A stretch of 21,292 nt of DNA from a virus. Every line of letters starts with the position of its first letter. Position 1 is the first letter of the stretch. The stretch lies in the IMG/VR virus record IMGVR_UViG_3300032304_001213, positions 1-21,292 of that record, one strand, 5' to 3'. This document shows positions 5,398-16,992 of this stretch, in pieces. A program made the translations under genes and the position numbers. The notes below the pieces were generated by a model. That model had not been told where the DNA came from and did not search any database. It saw nothing but the letters and a program-made list of their open reading frames with translations.

Positions 5398-5889
5398 ATG
5401 AAACGATTAAATCCAAATACGGGTTTGCCTTTTAAGCGTGGCGATCTTCGAGAAGATGGCCGAGTATTTAAAGGGTACAAGACAACAAAAACTAAGCACG
5501 ATGGGTATTATATAGAAAACTGGGTTACTGGTCAAGCATTGATTAAACAAAATGAATACAACAATCATTGGAAAAGAAATAACCCCGAAAAACATAATGC
5601 CCACGTCACTGCTTGTAAAAATAAAAACCCCGCTAAATATAACGCATTAAAGAGAAAACATAAATCCGCCAAAATACAGCGCACACCCCCTTGGCTAAAC
5701 GCCGAACATTGGGCTCAAATAGAATCGTTTTATAAACAAGCATACGACCTAAGCAAAGCCACTGGTATCCAACATCATGTTGATCATATTGTGCCTTTGC
5801 GTGGGCAATTTGTAAGTGGCCTCCATGTACCTTGGAATATGCAAGTATTGACAGCATCTGAAAACTGCTCTAAGTCAAACAGGGTTTGA
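5398..5889 (+). CDS. HNH homing endonuclease, antisense to the early operon (163 aa)
   Basis: This is an HNH nuclease of the free-standing phage type. The catalytic module is at the C-terminus: HHVDH at 126-130, followed by IVPLRG, GLHVPWNMQVLT (Asn 147) and ENCSKSNR (Asn 161). The N-terminus (TGLPFKRGD, then DGRVFKGY) and the basic centre (KRKHKSAKIQR) probably bind DNA. The gene is on the plus strand inside a minus-strand operon, is visibly richer in A/T than its neighbours, has its own phage-type promoter and overlaps the convergent gene by 20 nt. Those are the usual marks of a mobile selfish gene. Its insertion separates the upper and lower parts of the early block. The catalytic residues look intact. 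The cleavage site cannot be read from the sequence. Confidence 0.9.
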   Translation: MKRLNPNTGLPFKRGDLREDGRVFKGYKTTKTKHDGYYIENWVTGQALIKQNEYNNHWKRNNPEKHNAHVTACKNKNPAKYNALKRKHKSAKIQRTPPWLNAEHWAQIESFYKQAYDLSKATGIQHHVDHIVPLRGQFVSGLHVPWNMQVLTASENCSKSNRV

Positions 5890-8022: not shown

Positions 8023-8051
8023 ATTATAGTGACCTTTTCGGTCACTGTCAA
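8023..8051 (-). promoter_or_regulatory. Consensus sigma-70-type early promoter with an operator palindrome
   Basis: On the minus strand TTGACA (8051-8046) is followed after exactly 17 nt by TATAAT (8028-8023), a perfect match at both boxes. The spacer itself holds an inverted repeat, AGTGACC and GGTCACT (8028-8046), around a 5-nt loop. A protein bound there would cover the promoter. The palindrome suggests a repressor operator, since the unrepressed promoter should be extremely strong. No repressor gene is identified in the window. Confidence 0.85.
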
Positions 8052-8314
8052 TCGTATACGCCGATCTCACCGGCATTGATCCATTCTGCGTGCAGTCCGT
8101 ACTTAGCCAGCGTGTTGGTAATCAGTGGGTTGATACCAAACTCCCAGTCGGGTATGTTGCGACCGTCGTAGTAGTCTGCCCAGCAGGTGTCACGGTCGTA
8201 CTCGCCGTAAATACCCTCTGCGCTGATCTGAAAATTCTCGATGTCACTGCGCTCGTACACTGGGCACCCGATTTTCTTGAGTGCGTTGAATGCTAGTCTG
8301 TGGTTGCGTGTCAT
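8048..8314 (-). CDS. Hypothetical early protein (88 aa)
   Basis: The ATG at 8314 has TAGGAG upstream and follows the ribozyme-like segment directly. The product begins MTRNHRLAFNALKKIGCPVY (helix), continues through an acidic aromatic region (CWADYYDGRNIPDWEF) and ends with a helix (TNTLAKYGLHAEWI) and an acidic tail. The DYY..RNIP pattern recalls FNDYYGNRIP in the 101-residue protein further down, but the rest is not clearly related. Its last codons overlap the -35 box of the next promoter. Confidence 0.75.
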   Translation of the reverse strand: MTRNHRLAFNALKKIGCPVYERSDIENFQISAEGIYGEYDRDTCWADYYDGRNIPDWEFGINPLITNTLAKYGLHAEWINAGEIGVYD

Positions 8315-8331
8315 GGTGTAGCTCCTATGTT

Positions 8332-8381
8332 GGTCTCATCAGTGCACGCCTTACGTGCATACCGCTCACGCGGTTTCGACC
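8332..8381 (-). ncRNA. Hammerhead ribozyme, type II permutation
   Basis: All core elements are present in the minus-strand RNA. Stem II is GGUC (8381-8378) with GACC (8335-8332) and is the open end. GAA (8377-8375) is the conserved segment before stem III. Stem III is ACCGC (8374-8370) with GCGGU (8365-8361), capped by a GUGA tetraloop. A single A (8360) is the cleavage-site base. Stem I is UGCACG (8359-8354) with CGUGCA (8348-8343) and a UAAGG loop. CUGAUGA (8342-8336) completes the core. Base pairs A15.1-U16.1, U1.1-A2.1 and G10.1-C11.1 all fit. Cleavage is predicted between A8360 and U8359, separating the 111-residue gene's message from the rest of the early operon. Confidence 0.88.
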
Positions 8382-8385
8382 TGTA

Positions 8386-8721
8386 CTACGCGTACTCACG
8401 TGCGGTGACGTGCGGTACGATAAACTGGAAATACTCGGGGTTGAATTCGCCCCACTGGTCTGCCTTGTCACCGATCAGTGAGCCACGGTCGATACTGTGA
8501 TCATACACTGCAATGCAGTCCTGATCCAGTGCCGTCGCCAGCACGTCGATGTTGCCCGTGTGGTATACGTAGTCGATAATGACGGTTGGCTCGTCGCCGT
8601 CATACGATACGCGCACTGCCGTGACGTTTGCAACAAACTGCATTGCTTTGGTGAGGGTGAGCTCTACCGTGTTGTTGTCGCCTGTGAATGGGTTAGCTAA
8701 CCCGATATTCATGGTATACAT
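8386..8721 (-). CDS. First early gene, hypothetical protein (111 aa)
   Basis: This is the gene nearest the early promoter at 8895-8923. The ATG at 8721 follows AAGGAG closely; an ATG three codons later is too distant for that site. The product begins MYTMNIGLANPFTGDNNTVEL and is beta-rich with several valine runs (AVRVSYDGDEPTVIIDYVY), then an acidic second half (LDQDCIAVYDHSIDRGS) and a C-terminal strand. No family is recognised. The hammerhead sequence starts 5 nt beyond its stop codon, so self-cleavage would leave this message with a short, structured 3' end. Confidence 0.75.
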   Translation of the reverse strand: MYTMNIGLANPFTGDNNTVELTLTKAMQFVANVTAVRVSYDGDEPTVIIDYVYHTGNIDVLATALDQDCIAVYDHSIDRGSLIGDKADQWGEFNPEYFQFIVPHVTAREYA

Positions 8722-8894: not shown

Positions 8895-8923
8895 ACTATA
8901 CCGACCTTAGAATTAAATGTCAA
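8895..8923 (-). promoter_or_regulatory. Sigma-70-type early promoter at the divergent region
   Basis: On the minus strand TTGACA (8923-8918) is followed after exactly 17 nt by TATAGT (8900-8895), five of six in the -10 box. It points into the whole early block, with a predicted start near 8888. Its -35 box lies inside AATAGGTGTTGAC, nearly the same as AATAGGTGTTTAC found three times at 9161-9505, which suggests a shared binding protein. Confidence 0.8.
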
Positions 8924-9962: not shown

Positions 9963-10271
9963 ATGAGCAAATACGTATACCAAATCCAAGGCGCCCTGGA
10001 GAGTAGGCAGGGAGAATTCTTGGGGCTTCGTGTCTTGGTATGTGATGCGTTTAACTTTGATTCGGTTGACATACCTGTAGAGGTACTGGATTCAGAAACC
10101 GCAAAGTACATGCAGTTCAGACTTTCTATTACGGCAGAGACGGTCAACATAGCAAGACTGCCGGTTGAAATCCAAAACAGAATACGCACGCCGTTAGGGC
10201 GATGGCTGGACCACTGGGTCCTAGATAATTTTTATGGCGATAACCGCAAATACAAAGATACTAACGCTTGA
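9963..10271 (+). CDS. Hypothetical protein, first late gene (102 aa)
   Basis: An ATG at 9957 lies inside the promoter's TATTATTATG box and cannot be transcribed, so I take the ATG at 9963, which gives a leaderless message. The product begins MSKYVYQIQGALESRQGEFL and is a mixed alpha/beta protein with a strand-rich first half (LGLRVLVCDAFNF) and a later segment ITAETVNIARLPVEIQNRI. The end, LGRWLDHWVLDNFYGDNRKY, is rich in aromatics. The gene overlaps the next by 38 nt. Its position two genes before the terminase large subunit makes a packaging role possible, but no small-terminase motif is visible. Confidence 0.78.
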   Translation: MSKYVYQIQGALESRQGEFLGLRVLVCDAFNFDSVDIPVEVLDSETAKYMQFRLSITAETVNIARLPVEIQNRIRTPLGRWLDHWVLDNFYGDNRKYKDTNA

Positions 10272-11226
10272 TTACTGGAAGCCAGCCTACAAGCTGGAGG
10301 TAGGTGACTATGTCTTTGATCGTAAGGGCAACATAGTCCAGGTCAAACTAGCGCAGCAGTACCAAGGCATACGCTGCTATGAGGTCATGTTCAACGACTA
10401 CCTGACGGTGGAGGGTGACGCCAACCTGGCGCTACCCACAGAGAACCCCAAATACCGTAACAGGCTGGTCACGTACAAGGGCAAGCTGCAGTTTAGGCGC
10501 CCTCTTAAGCCACTAACGGCCGAGCAGATGCTTGATATGCCGCTACTGGATCAACACAACCGCAAGATACTCTCGGTCCCCACCACAAACCCCCTGGCAT
10601 TACCCCACCAAGACCTACCAGTCCCAGCGTTTGTCTTTGGGTTCTGGTTCTTTGCCCGTAGATCGACTGGCAGGATGGCTGCGGCCAAGGGAACAACCGA
10701 GTTTGTGGTGCAACGATTCAAAGACCATGGCTACAAAGTGGTTATGGGACCGCTGATCAACACCGGGGAGCGCGAATTTAGCGTCACACCCACAGTTGAG
10801 TCGCAGTTAATCCCCAACATCCCCAAGATTATCACCAACAACTACCTTTTTTCGTCGCCAGAGCAGCGACAAGACTTACTTTCTGGCATTGTCTGCGCAA
10901 AAAACAGGCGTTACAACAAGAGATCAGACCGTTTTCGGTTTTCTTCTCGCCAATACGACACCGTTCGCCGTGTCCAGCTCCTGGCAGAGTCCCTTGGCGG
11001 GCGGTCTAGCCTGCAAAGTGACGACCACAAGAAGGATTTTACGGTTTTCTTTAAGATCCGCGCGCCCATCCACCCGGAACAGAGCTCGCCCAAAGTAAAA
11101 GTCCACCATGGCAGACGTTATGTCAGCAAGATCAGCCCAATCCCGACCCAGATGTGTGTGCACATTGAGACAACGGGCGAGGATAACACCATTTTAGTGG
11201 GGGAGGGCTTCATACCATGTCTTTAA
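10234..11226 (+). CDS. Intein-derived (Hint/LAGLIDADG-like) protein without catalytic residues (330 aa)
   Basis: The protein begins exactly where an intein would: MAITANTKILTLDYWK aligns with intein block A (C-x-x-x-D/N-TKILT-x-x-G-WK), but the first catalytic Cys is Ala. EVGDYVFDRKG (22-32) is the usual next strand. Block B, expected around residues 58-68 (VEGDANLALP), lacks the His. The C-terminus, CVHIETTGEDNTILVGEGF followed by IPCL, matches intein blocks F and G, but the terminal His-Asn is missing and the chain stops there. The middle resembles a dodecapeptide homing endonuclease: FVFGFWFFARRS (133-144) and LLSGIVCAKN (215-224) followed by RFRFSS and LLAESLGG. Both motif aspartates are replaced. 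It lies directly before, and overlaps, the terminase gene, the usual small-terminase position. No good ribosome binding site precedes the ATG. Confidence 0.75.
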   Translation: MAITANTKILTLDYWKPAYKLEVGDYVFDRKGNIVQVKLAQQYQGIRCYEVMFNDYLTVEGDANLALPTENPKYRNRLVTYKGKLQFRRPLKPLTAEQMLDMPLLDQHNRKILSVPTTNPLALPHQDLPVPAFVFGFWFFARRSTGRMAAAKGTTEFVVQRFKDHGYKVVMGPLINTGEREFSVTPTVESQLIPNIPKIITNNYLFSSPEQRQDLLSGIVCAKNRRYNKRSDRFRFSSRQYDTVRRVQLLAESLGGRSSLQSDDHKKDFTVFFKIRAPIHPEQSSPKVKVHHGRRYVSKISPIPTQMCVHIETTGEDNTILVGEGFIPCL

Positions 11227-16554: not shown

Positions 16555-16992
16555 GTGTTTGATTTAAAAGGCAATGAAGAGCCGGATACACGATCAGAGG
16601 AAGAATGTTTTCCCGCAATCGACACCGGTATTGAGGTAGCTGGAGACCGTGTCCTAGTACAACTACGACGCGAAAAATCAACCAGCAAGGGCGGAATCAT
16701 CCTAGTCGATGAGACCAGACAGACGCTACGATTTAACGAGACGGTTGCAAAGGTAGTCCAGATTGGACCCCTAGCATACAAATCGCCAGACACACTGGAG
16801 CCGTGGATTGAAGGCCCCTGGTGTAATGTGGGTGACTTGGTTCGCACTATCAAGTACGGCGGCGATCGTTTTGTTGTGCAACCAGATGATGAGGGTTCTC
16901 CCGTAGTATTCATCACGTTGCAGGCTCGTGAAATCATTTCTCGCATCAAGTCGTTTGAGTATGCGCAGAAAATGAAAGCGTTCATAGATTAA
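16555..16992 (+). CDS. GroES-like co-chaperonin (145 aa)
   Basis: The protein matches the GroES/Cpn10 fold: GDRVLVQL at 30-37, the mobile-loop-like STSKGGIIL at 42-50, AKVVQIGP at 65-72, VGDLVRTIKYGG at 92-103 and a C-terminal strand at 117-124. GroES caps the host GroEL ring. Phage versions such as T4 gp31 are needed to fold the major capsid protein, which fits its place just before scaffold and capsid genes. It is longer than bacterial GroES (about 97 aa) because of an N-terminal extension of about 25 residues, an insert around residues 73-90 and a C-terminal helix. The start is GTG at 16555 with GGGAG upstream; no in-frame ATG is near. The start is therefore less certain than the family. 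Confidence 0.82.
   Translation: MFDLKGNEEPDTRSEEECFPAIDTGIEVAGDRVLVQLRREKSTSKGGIILVDETRQTLRFNETVAKVVQIGPLAYKSPDTLEPWIEGPWCNVGDLVRTIKYGGDRFVVQPDDEGSPVVFITLQAREIISRIKSFEYAQKMKAFID

Follow-up and report, generated by a model that had tools for sequence, protein, structure and literature searches.

What is the short RNA that lies between two small genes of an uncultured phage, and what could it do for the message that carries it? The window analysed here, a virus record of 21,292 bases, encodes a D5-type primase, a sigma factor, a terminase, a portal and capsid genes; its terminase is closest to that of an uncultured Caudoviricetes record (52%) and to those of Caulobacter phages (42%). The junction under study lies on the minus strand, with the following landmarks:

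8895-8923, minus strand: promoter TTGACA-17-TATAGT, likely operon start, upstream of the 111-aa gene (sequence match)
8386-8721, minus strand: upstream gene, 111 aa, phrog_11722, function not assigned (ORF, profile match)
8322-8326, minus strand: Shine-Dalgarno AGGAG of the 88-aa gene (sequence)
8048-8314, minus strand: downstream gene, 88 aa, without a family (ORF list)

A perfect TTGACA-17-TATAAT promoter was also present at 8051-8023 (minus strand), directly after the end of the 88-aa gene; the transcript bearing the RNA may thus rely on one promoter for its first two genes only. Elsewhere in the window, a GroES-like co-chaperonin (phrog_3188, E 6e-10) is encoded among the head genes at 16555-16992 (plus strand). 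By eye, a 330-aa ORF before the terminase (10234-11226, plus strand) resembles a protein of the Hint/intein type, and a 163-aa ORF oriented opposite to its neighbours (5398-5889, plus strand) contains an HNH-like stretch, both without a Pfam match.

On the minus strand, positions 8381-8332 read GGUC GAAA CCGC GUGA GCGG U A / UGCACGUAAGGCGUGCA CUGAUGA GACC, where the slash marks the predicted cleavage bond. Direct reading of this sequence gives a complete hammerhead core (C3UGAUGA9, G12AA14 and H17 = A8360), with all invariant positions in the correct order, exactly as a preliminary description of the locus had stated. The consensus pairs that it listed are present too: A15.1-U16.1, U-A at 1.1-2.1 and G-C at 10.1-11.1. 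Stems I and III are closed and stem II is open, which is the type II form proposed at the outset, and RNAfold returned the three-way junction as both the MFE and the centroid structure. The element is made up as follows:

8332-8381, minus strand: compact type II hammerhead ribozyme, predicted (core, fold, covariation, chance scan, relatives)
8382, minus strand: A directly 5' of stem II, predicted tertiary partner of U1.7 (co-variation; PMC2553840)
8378-8381, minus strand: stem II 5' strand GGUC, 11.4-11.1 (sequence; covaries in the broad set)
8361-8374, minus strand: stem III hairpin, A15.1 CCGC GUGA GCGG U16.1 (sequence, fold, covariation)
8359-8360, minus strand: predicted cleavage bond, A8360 (H17) / U8359 (1.1) (established hammerhead core)
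8343-8359, minus strand: stem I hairpin UGCACG UAAGG CGUGCA, 17 nt, loop UAAGG, with U1.7 at 8353 (sequence, covariation, class comparison)
8336-8342, minus strand: core CUGAUGA (sequence)
8332-8335, minus strand: stem II 3' strand GACC, 10.1-10.4 (sequence)

The fold energy (z -1.9) is a weak argument taken alone. A strict motif scan, however, gave only two matches in 1.42 billion simulated strand-bases of the window's dinucleotide composition, a chance expectation of about 6e-5 per window against the one seen. The window itself carries a single copy.

The 111-aa protein is encoded on 30 viral contigs, and the same RNA adjoins the gene in most of them. Among 23 distinct sequences from these relatives, 98.5% of the cells expected to pair did so, against 80.5% after shuffling and at most 50% when the partners were slid. 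Nine of the 17 pairs had changed on both sides, stems I and III being rewritten by compensatory change, and doubly changed cells numbered 66 against 14 in shuffles. The preliminary description had pointed to related phages as the place to seek covarying stems, and there they are indeed found. RNAalifold, run on the relatives, recovered the same structure unaided; moreover, a broad set (n = 146) was 98.5% paired against 67.7% when shuffled, with covariation in all three stems.

We built a covariance model from the relatives' copies and ran it on the 30 related loci. Scores were 66-86 bits or there was no copy; the other matches were a copy truncated at the edge of its contig and a pair of near-chance matches of 13 bits (L004, L005). 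At the sensitivity used, decayed copies were not seen in these 30 loci. According to the preliminary description, loss of the core beside conserved flanking genes would speak against a ribozyme; in the related loci the RNA is either complete or absent. The same data bear on the reading that the element is a structured but inactive pair of hammerhead-like hairpins, acting only as an mRNA stabiliser. Some hammerhead-like RNAs are inactive according to Perreault et al. (PMC3088659), but the catalytic core is complete here and in the relatives and its decay was not observed, and we regard an inactive stabiliser as highly improbable. Core, fold and strong covariation in relatives together support the assignment of the window element as a type II hammerhead between two phage genes, and its RNA would be expected to cleave itself. 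A nucleotide similarity search of the junction region against cultured phages gave no match, and no hammerhead was found with model R1 in the Achromobacter and Erythrobacter phages that encode distant relatives of the 111-aa protein.

Abundant, highly active type II ribozymes were reportedly found in human microbiome metagenomes by Jimenez, Delwart and Luptak in 2011. Phage type II hammerheads between or flanking single genes were described in 2011 with a proposed role in mRNA processing, and cleavage of other phage hammerheads was reported in vitro and in vivo (Perreault et al., PMC3088659). Phage type II hammerheads, their activity and the processing idea are thus known already. The window element resembles these bacterial and prophage ribozymes (PMC3088659, RF02276) in its core, its open stem II and its position between small phage genes; as among the hammerheads of that study, some phages carry several per genome. 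In the type II consensus, loop I forms a pseudoknot with the 3' tail; pseudoknots are used by about 40% of all hammerheads in that work, and others, which lack one, may rely on different contacts (PMC3088659).

To place the window element among its kin, at least 651 distinct type II-form hammerheads were gathered by pattern scans of IMG/VR and GTDB and from the relatives. The patterns prescribed some of the stem II bases and a range of total lengths, and left position 1.7 and the 5' flank of stem II free. The length of the stem I hairpin was bimodal among the hammerheads listed (at least 651). A compact class of at least 433, to which the window belongs, has a stem I hairpin of 17-18 nt and mostly a 4-bp stem II; a long class of at least 216 has a hairpin of mostly 21-24 nt and mostly a 3-bp stem II. 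Among the matches listed, a loop I-tail pseudoknot of four or more pairs was available in 175 of the 216 long hammerheads (69 expected) and in 27 of the 433 compact ones (35 by chance). The pseudoknot was also tried on the window's close relatives and rejected, 56.5% pairing against 50.0% in shuffles not being significant. Set against the consensus of PMC3088659, the compact class thus differs in combining a 4-bp stem II with a stem I hairpin of 17-18 nt and in showing no pseudoknot signal.

What, then, holds the compact fold? Among the matches listed, U occupies position 1.7 in 422 of 433 compact hammerheads and A lies directly 5' of stem II in 420 of 433. The two positions are linked (420 A/U, 11 non-A/non-U and 2 mixed; Fisher 3.5e-20), and in all 11 non-A/non-U cases listed, position 1.7 is A and the base before stem II is U or C; the combination of A with U occurs in L098, L412 and L487. 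Dereplicated counts for the matches listed were 176/0/2/6 (Fisher 5.6e-10, mutual information z = 35), and compact hammerheads from bacterial genome assemblies had U at 1.7 and the A flank without exception (43/43). The two classes of crystallised hammerheads share a single tertiary pair, in which the last A of the stem II loop makes a Hoogsteen pair with a U adjacent to residue 1.6 (Chi et al. 2008, PMC2553840). The compact class is like the sTRSV class of that study in its co-varying A and U, here the A 5' of the 4-bp stem II and the U at 1.7; it is unlike it in that stem II is open, the A lying in the linker to the upstream gene and not in a closed tetraloop. By analogy, compact type II ribozymes would use the A-U contact of the crystallised hammerheads with stem II open, and their fold is probably held by U1.7 contacting the A 5' of stem II; the co-variation is observed directly, and the geometry is inferred. 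According to a 2017 review, type II contacts are usually Watson-Crick and the role of phage hammerheads is open (PMC6155905).

Several further features of the collection were noted. Assemblies with compact hammerheads included Paraburkholderia, Gastranaerophilales, Clostridia and others, perhaps as prophages (loci L156, L159-L161, L165-L167, L172, L181, L195, L198, L205, L206). Two phage genomes carry nine hammerheads each within a few kilobases (L140 9144-13228; L345, 3300038412_000035). Some hammerheads have an extra base between A9 and 10.1 (CUGAYGA U GACC), a U in 11/11 among the matches listed (L028 5932-5994 and 6459-6521, L120 in two copies, L064/L089, L119, L137, L177, L208, L428). Both L028 copies and both L120 copies share this U, which hints at within-genome copying or at a tolerated core variant.

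The preliminary description had proposed a search with the Rfam type II model. Hammerhead_II (RF02276) does match the window, but at 19.4 bits, below its gathering threshold of 37 (E 0.092 in a 201-base search), and Rfam with default settings reported nothing there. At cut-off, the model recognised 0 of 15 hammerhead-bearing loci; among five of the 15, the best score was 36.4 of 37 bits. The compact class fell below the Rfam cut-off in all tested loci, and Rfam-based phage annotation therefore tends to miss such ribozymes.

The position of the RNA is equally constrained. In the window it takes up the space from the stop codon to the ribosome-binding site; the distances first given (5 nt after the stop, about 10 nt before the ribosome-binding site) need correction, since the gap from the stop (8388-8386) to stem II (8381) is 4 nt and that from the end of stem II to AGGAG (8326-8322) is 5 nt. 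Likewise, 124 of 182 hammerheads had a stop codon -3 to 8 nt upstream together with a Shine-Dalgarno and a start codon no more than 45 nt downstream; the same arrangement was found for 1 of 182 when the opposite strand was read, and at 44 of 3640 sites chosen at random. Such packing could mean that cleavage is regulated by translation: a ribosome at the stop or start would cover stem II and block folding, so that poorly translated messages are cut and the ribozyme works as a sensor. Indeed, in at least 435 compact copies the median distance is 2 nt from stop codon to stem II and 22 nt from stem II to start codon, the long class is packed in the same way, and some copies have a stop codon that reaches into the beginning of stem II. 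Nevertheless, the small intergenic gaps of phages alone also predict tight packing, and we consider a translation sensor rather unlikely. Sequestration of the ribosome-binding site was tried as a switch and rejected: the predicted fold keeps its three-way junction and no on/off switch is suggested. With longer flanks in the folding, the Shine-Dalgarno was partly drawn into weak pairing.

The junction occupied by the ribozyme varies by phage: it lies before the 111-aa gene, after it, on both sides of it, or one gene away. In L001 and L015 this gene lies between two ribozymes, and so do other single genes in L006, L016, L017 and L027, which would be expected if ribozyme pairs excised single-gene RNAs whose 5'-OH and 2',3'-cyclic phosphate ends were then ligated into a circular message. 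In the window, however, there is only one ribozyme copy, and a search by Perreault et al. for circular or spliced products was negative (PMC3088659); we judge circular messages very unlikely. Mobility between junctions might also be explained if the element acted as DNA, a promiscuous recombination linker between small gene cassettes, its RNA activity being incidental. Variable gene junctions are occupied, flanking genes are reshuffled, and CAGGTCGAAAC and CTGAYGAGACCA do not vary among close relatives. Against a linker, the stems are freely rewritten with pairing retained, the strand is fixed relative to the genes and the unpaired catalytic bases are kept; there is little probability left for a role purely as DNA.

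A further clue came from relatives that lack the ribozyme. At the junction from the 111-aa gene (c0) to the c5 gene, the ribozyme is present in L002 and absent in L009 and L010, thus it is not essential. In five ribozyme-less loci (L020, L022, L023, L025, L026), the 111-aa gene has a perfect TTGACA-16-TATAAT promoter whose start is at -66, and in ten other relatives the ribozyme starts at -66 to -71 of this gene. In L006, L016, L017 and L027, and also in L011 and L043, a promoter of sigma-70 consensus lies inside the ribozyme DNA, with the loop side of stem III as -35 box and the 3' strand of stem I plus C3 and U4 as -10 box. Six such promoter-containing hammerheads were found, against 0.34 expected when stem III blocks were swapped at random; they represent about four distinct sequences and the five promoter-bearing ribozyme-less loci stem from few lineages, so that both counts reflect few independent events. 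Given this exchange with promoters, the simplest role for the ribozyme is to provide a gene with a fresh mRNA 5' end ahead of it, and the compact family seems to supply such message ends at places where related phages have a promoter.

To the motif, covariation, placement, family and promoter exchange that we observed, we add a mechanism that we consider likely, argued from sequence: a compact type II hammerhead in an early operon mRNA that cleaves itself and uncouples two genes, leaving protected message ends. While transcription proceeds from the promoter at 8923-8895, the ribozyme would fold and cut between A8360 and U8359. The upstream message, with the 111-aa gene, would finish with the stem III hairpin and bear a 2',3'-cyclic phosphate. 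Its downstream counterpart would carry a 5'-OH and open immediately with the stem I hairpin; the start codon of the 88-aa gene would follow 45 nt later, and the ribosome-binding site of this gene would be retained. Judging by what is generally known of bacterial mRNA decay, both ends should be protected from 5'-monophosphate-dependent and 3' exonucleolytic attack, the usual routes of entry; the case for end protection is drawn from this general picture only. For the window operon, cleavage, end protection and uncoupling would serve to give each gene its own protected end, the ribozyme standing in for the separate promoter of some relatives. Competition with terminating and initiating ribosomes would be a plausible regulatory layer on cleavage.

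A search of the openly available literature found no description of the compact class, of a co-varying contact in type II hammerheads or of promoter exchange. The compact class, the co-varying contact between 1.7 and the stem II flank in the type II form, and the exchange with promoters thus look new. The compact class amounts to a second, short type II architecture with a tertiary contact predicted at the level of single bases, and the two genomes with nine hammerheads each (L140 and L345) are strong candidates for experimental work. All together, we propose tentatively, and with slightly less than even confidence, that a large compact class of phage hammerheads has swapped the pseudoknot for a viroid-type contact between 1.7 and the stem II flank, and that in this lineage these ribozymes may be interchangeable with promoters, and sometimes superimposed on them, for making new mRNA 5' ends before genes. 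For the role of phage hammerheads, a question since 2011, this lineage offers natural pairs: junctions with a ribozyme, with a promoter at the same place, with both in one sequence, or with neither.
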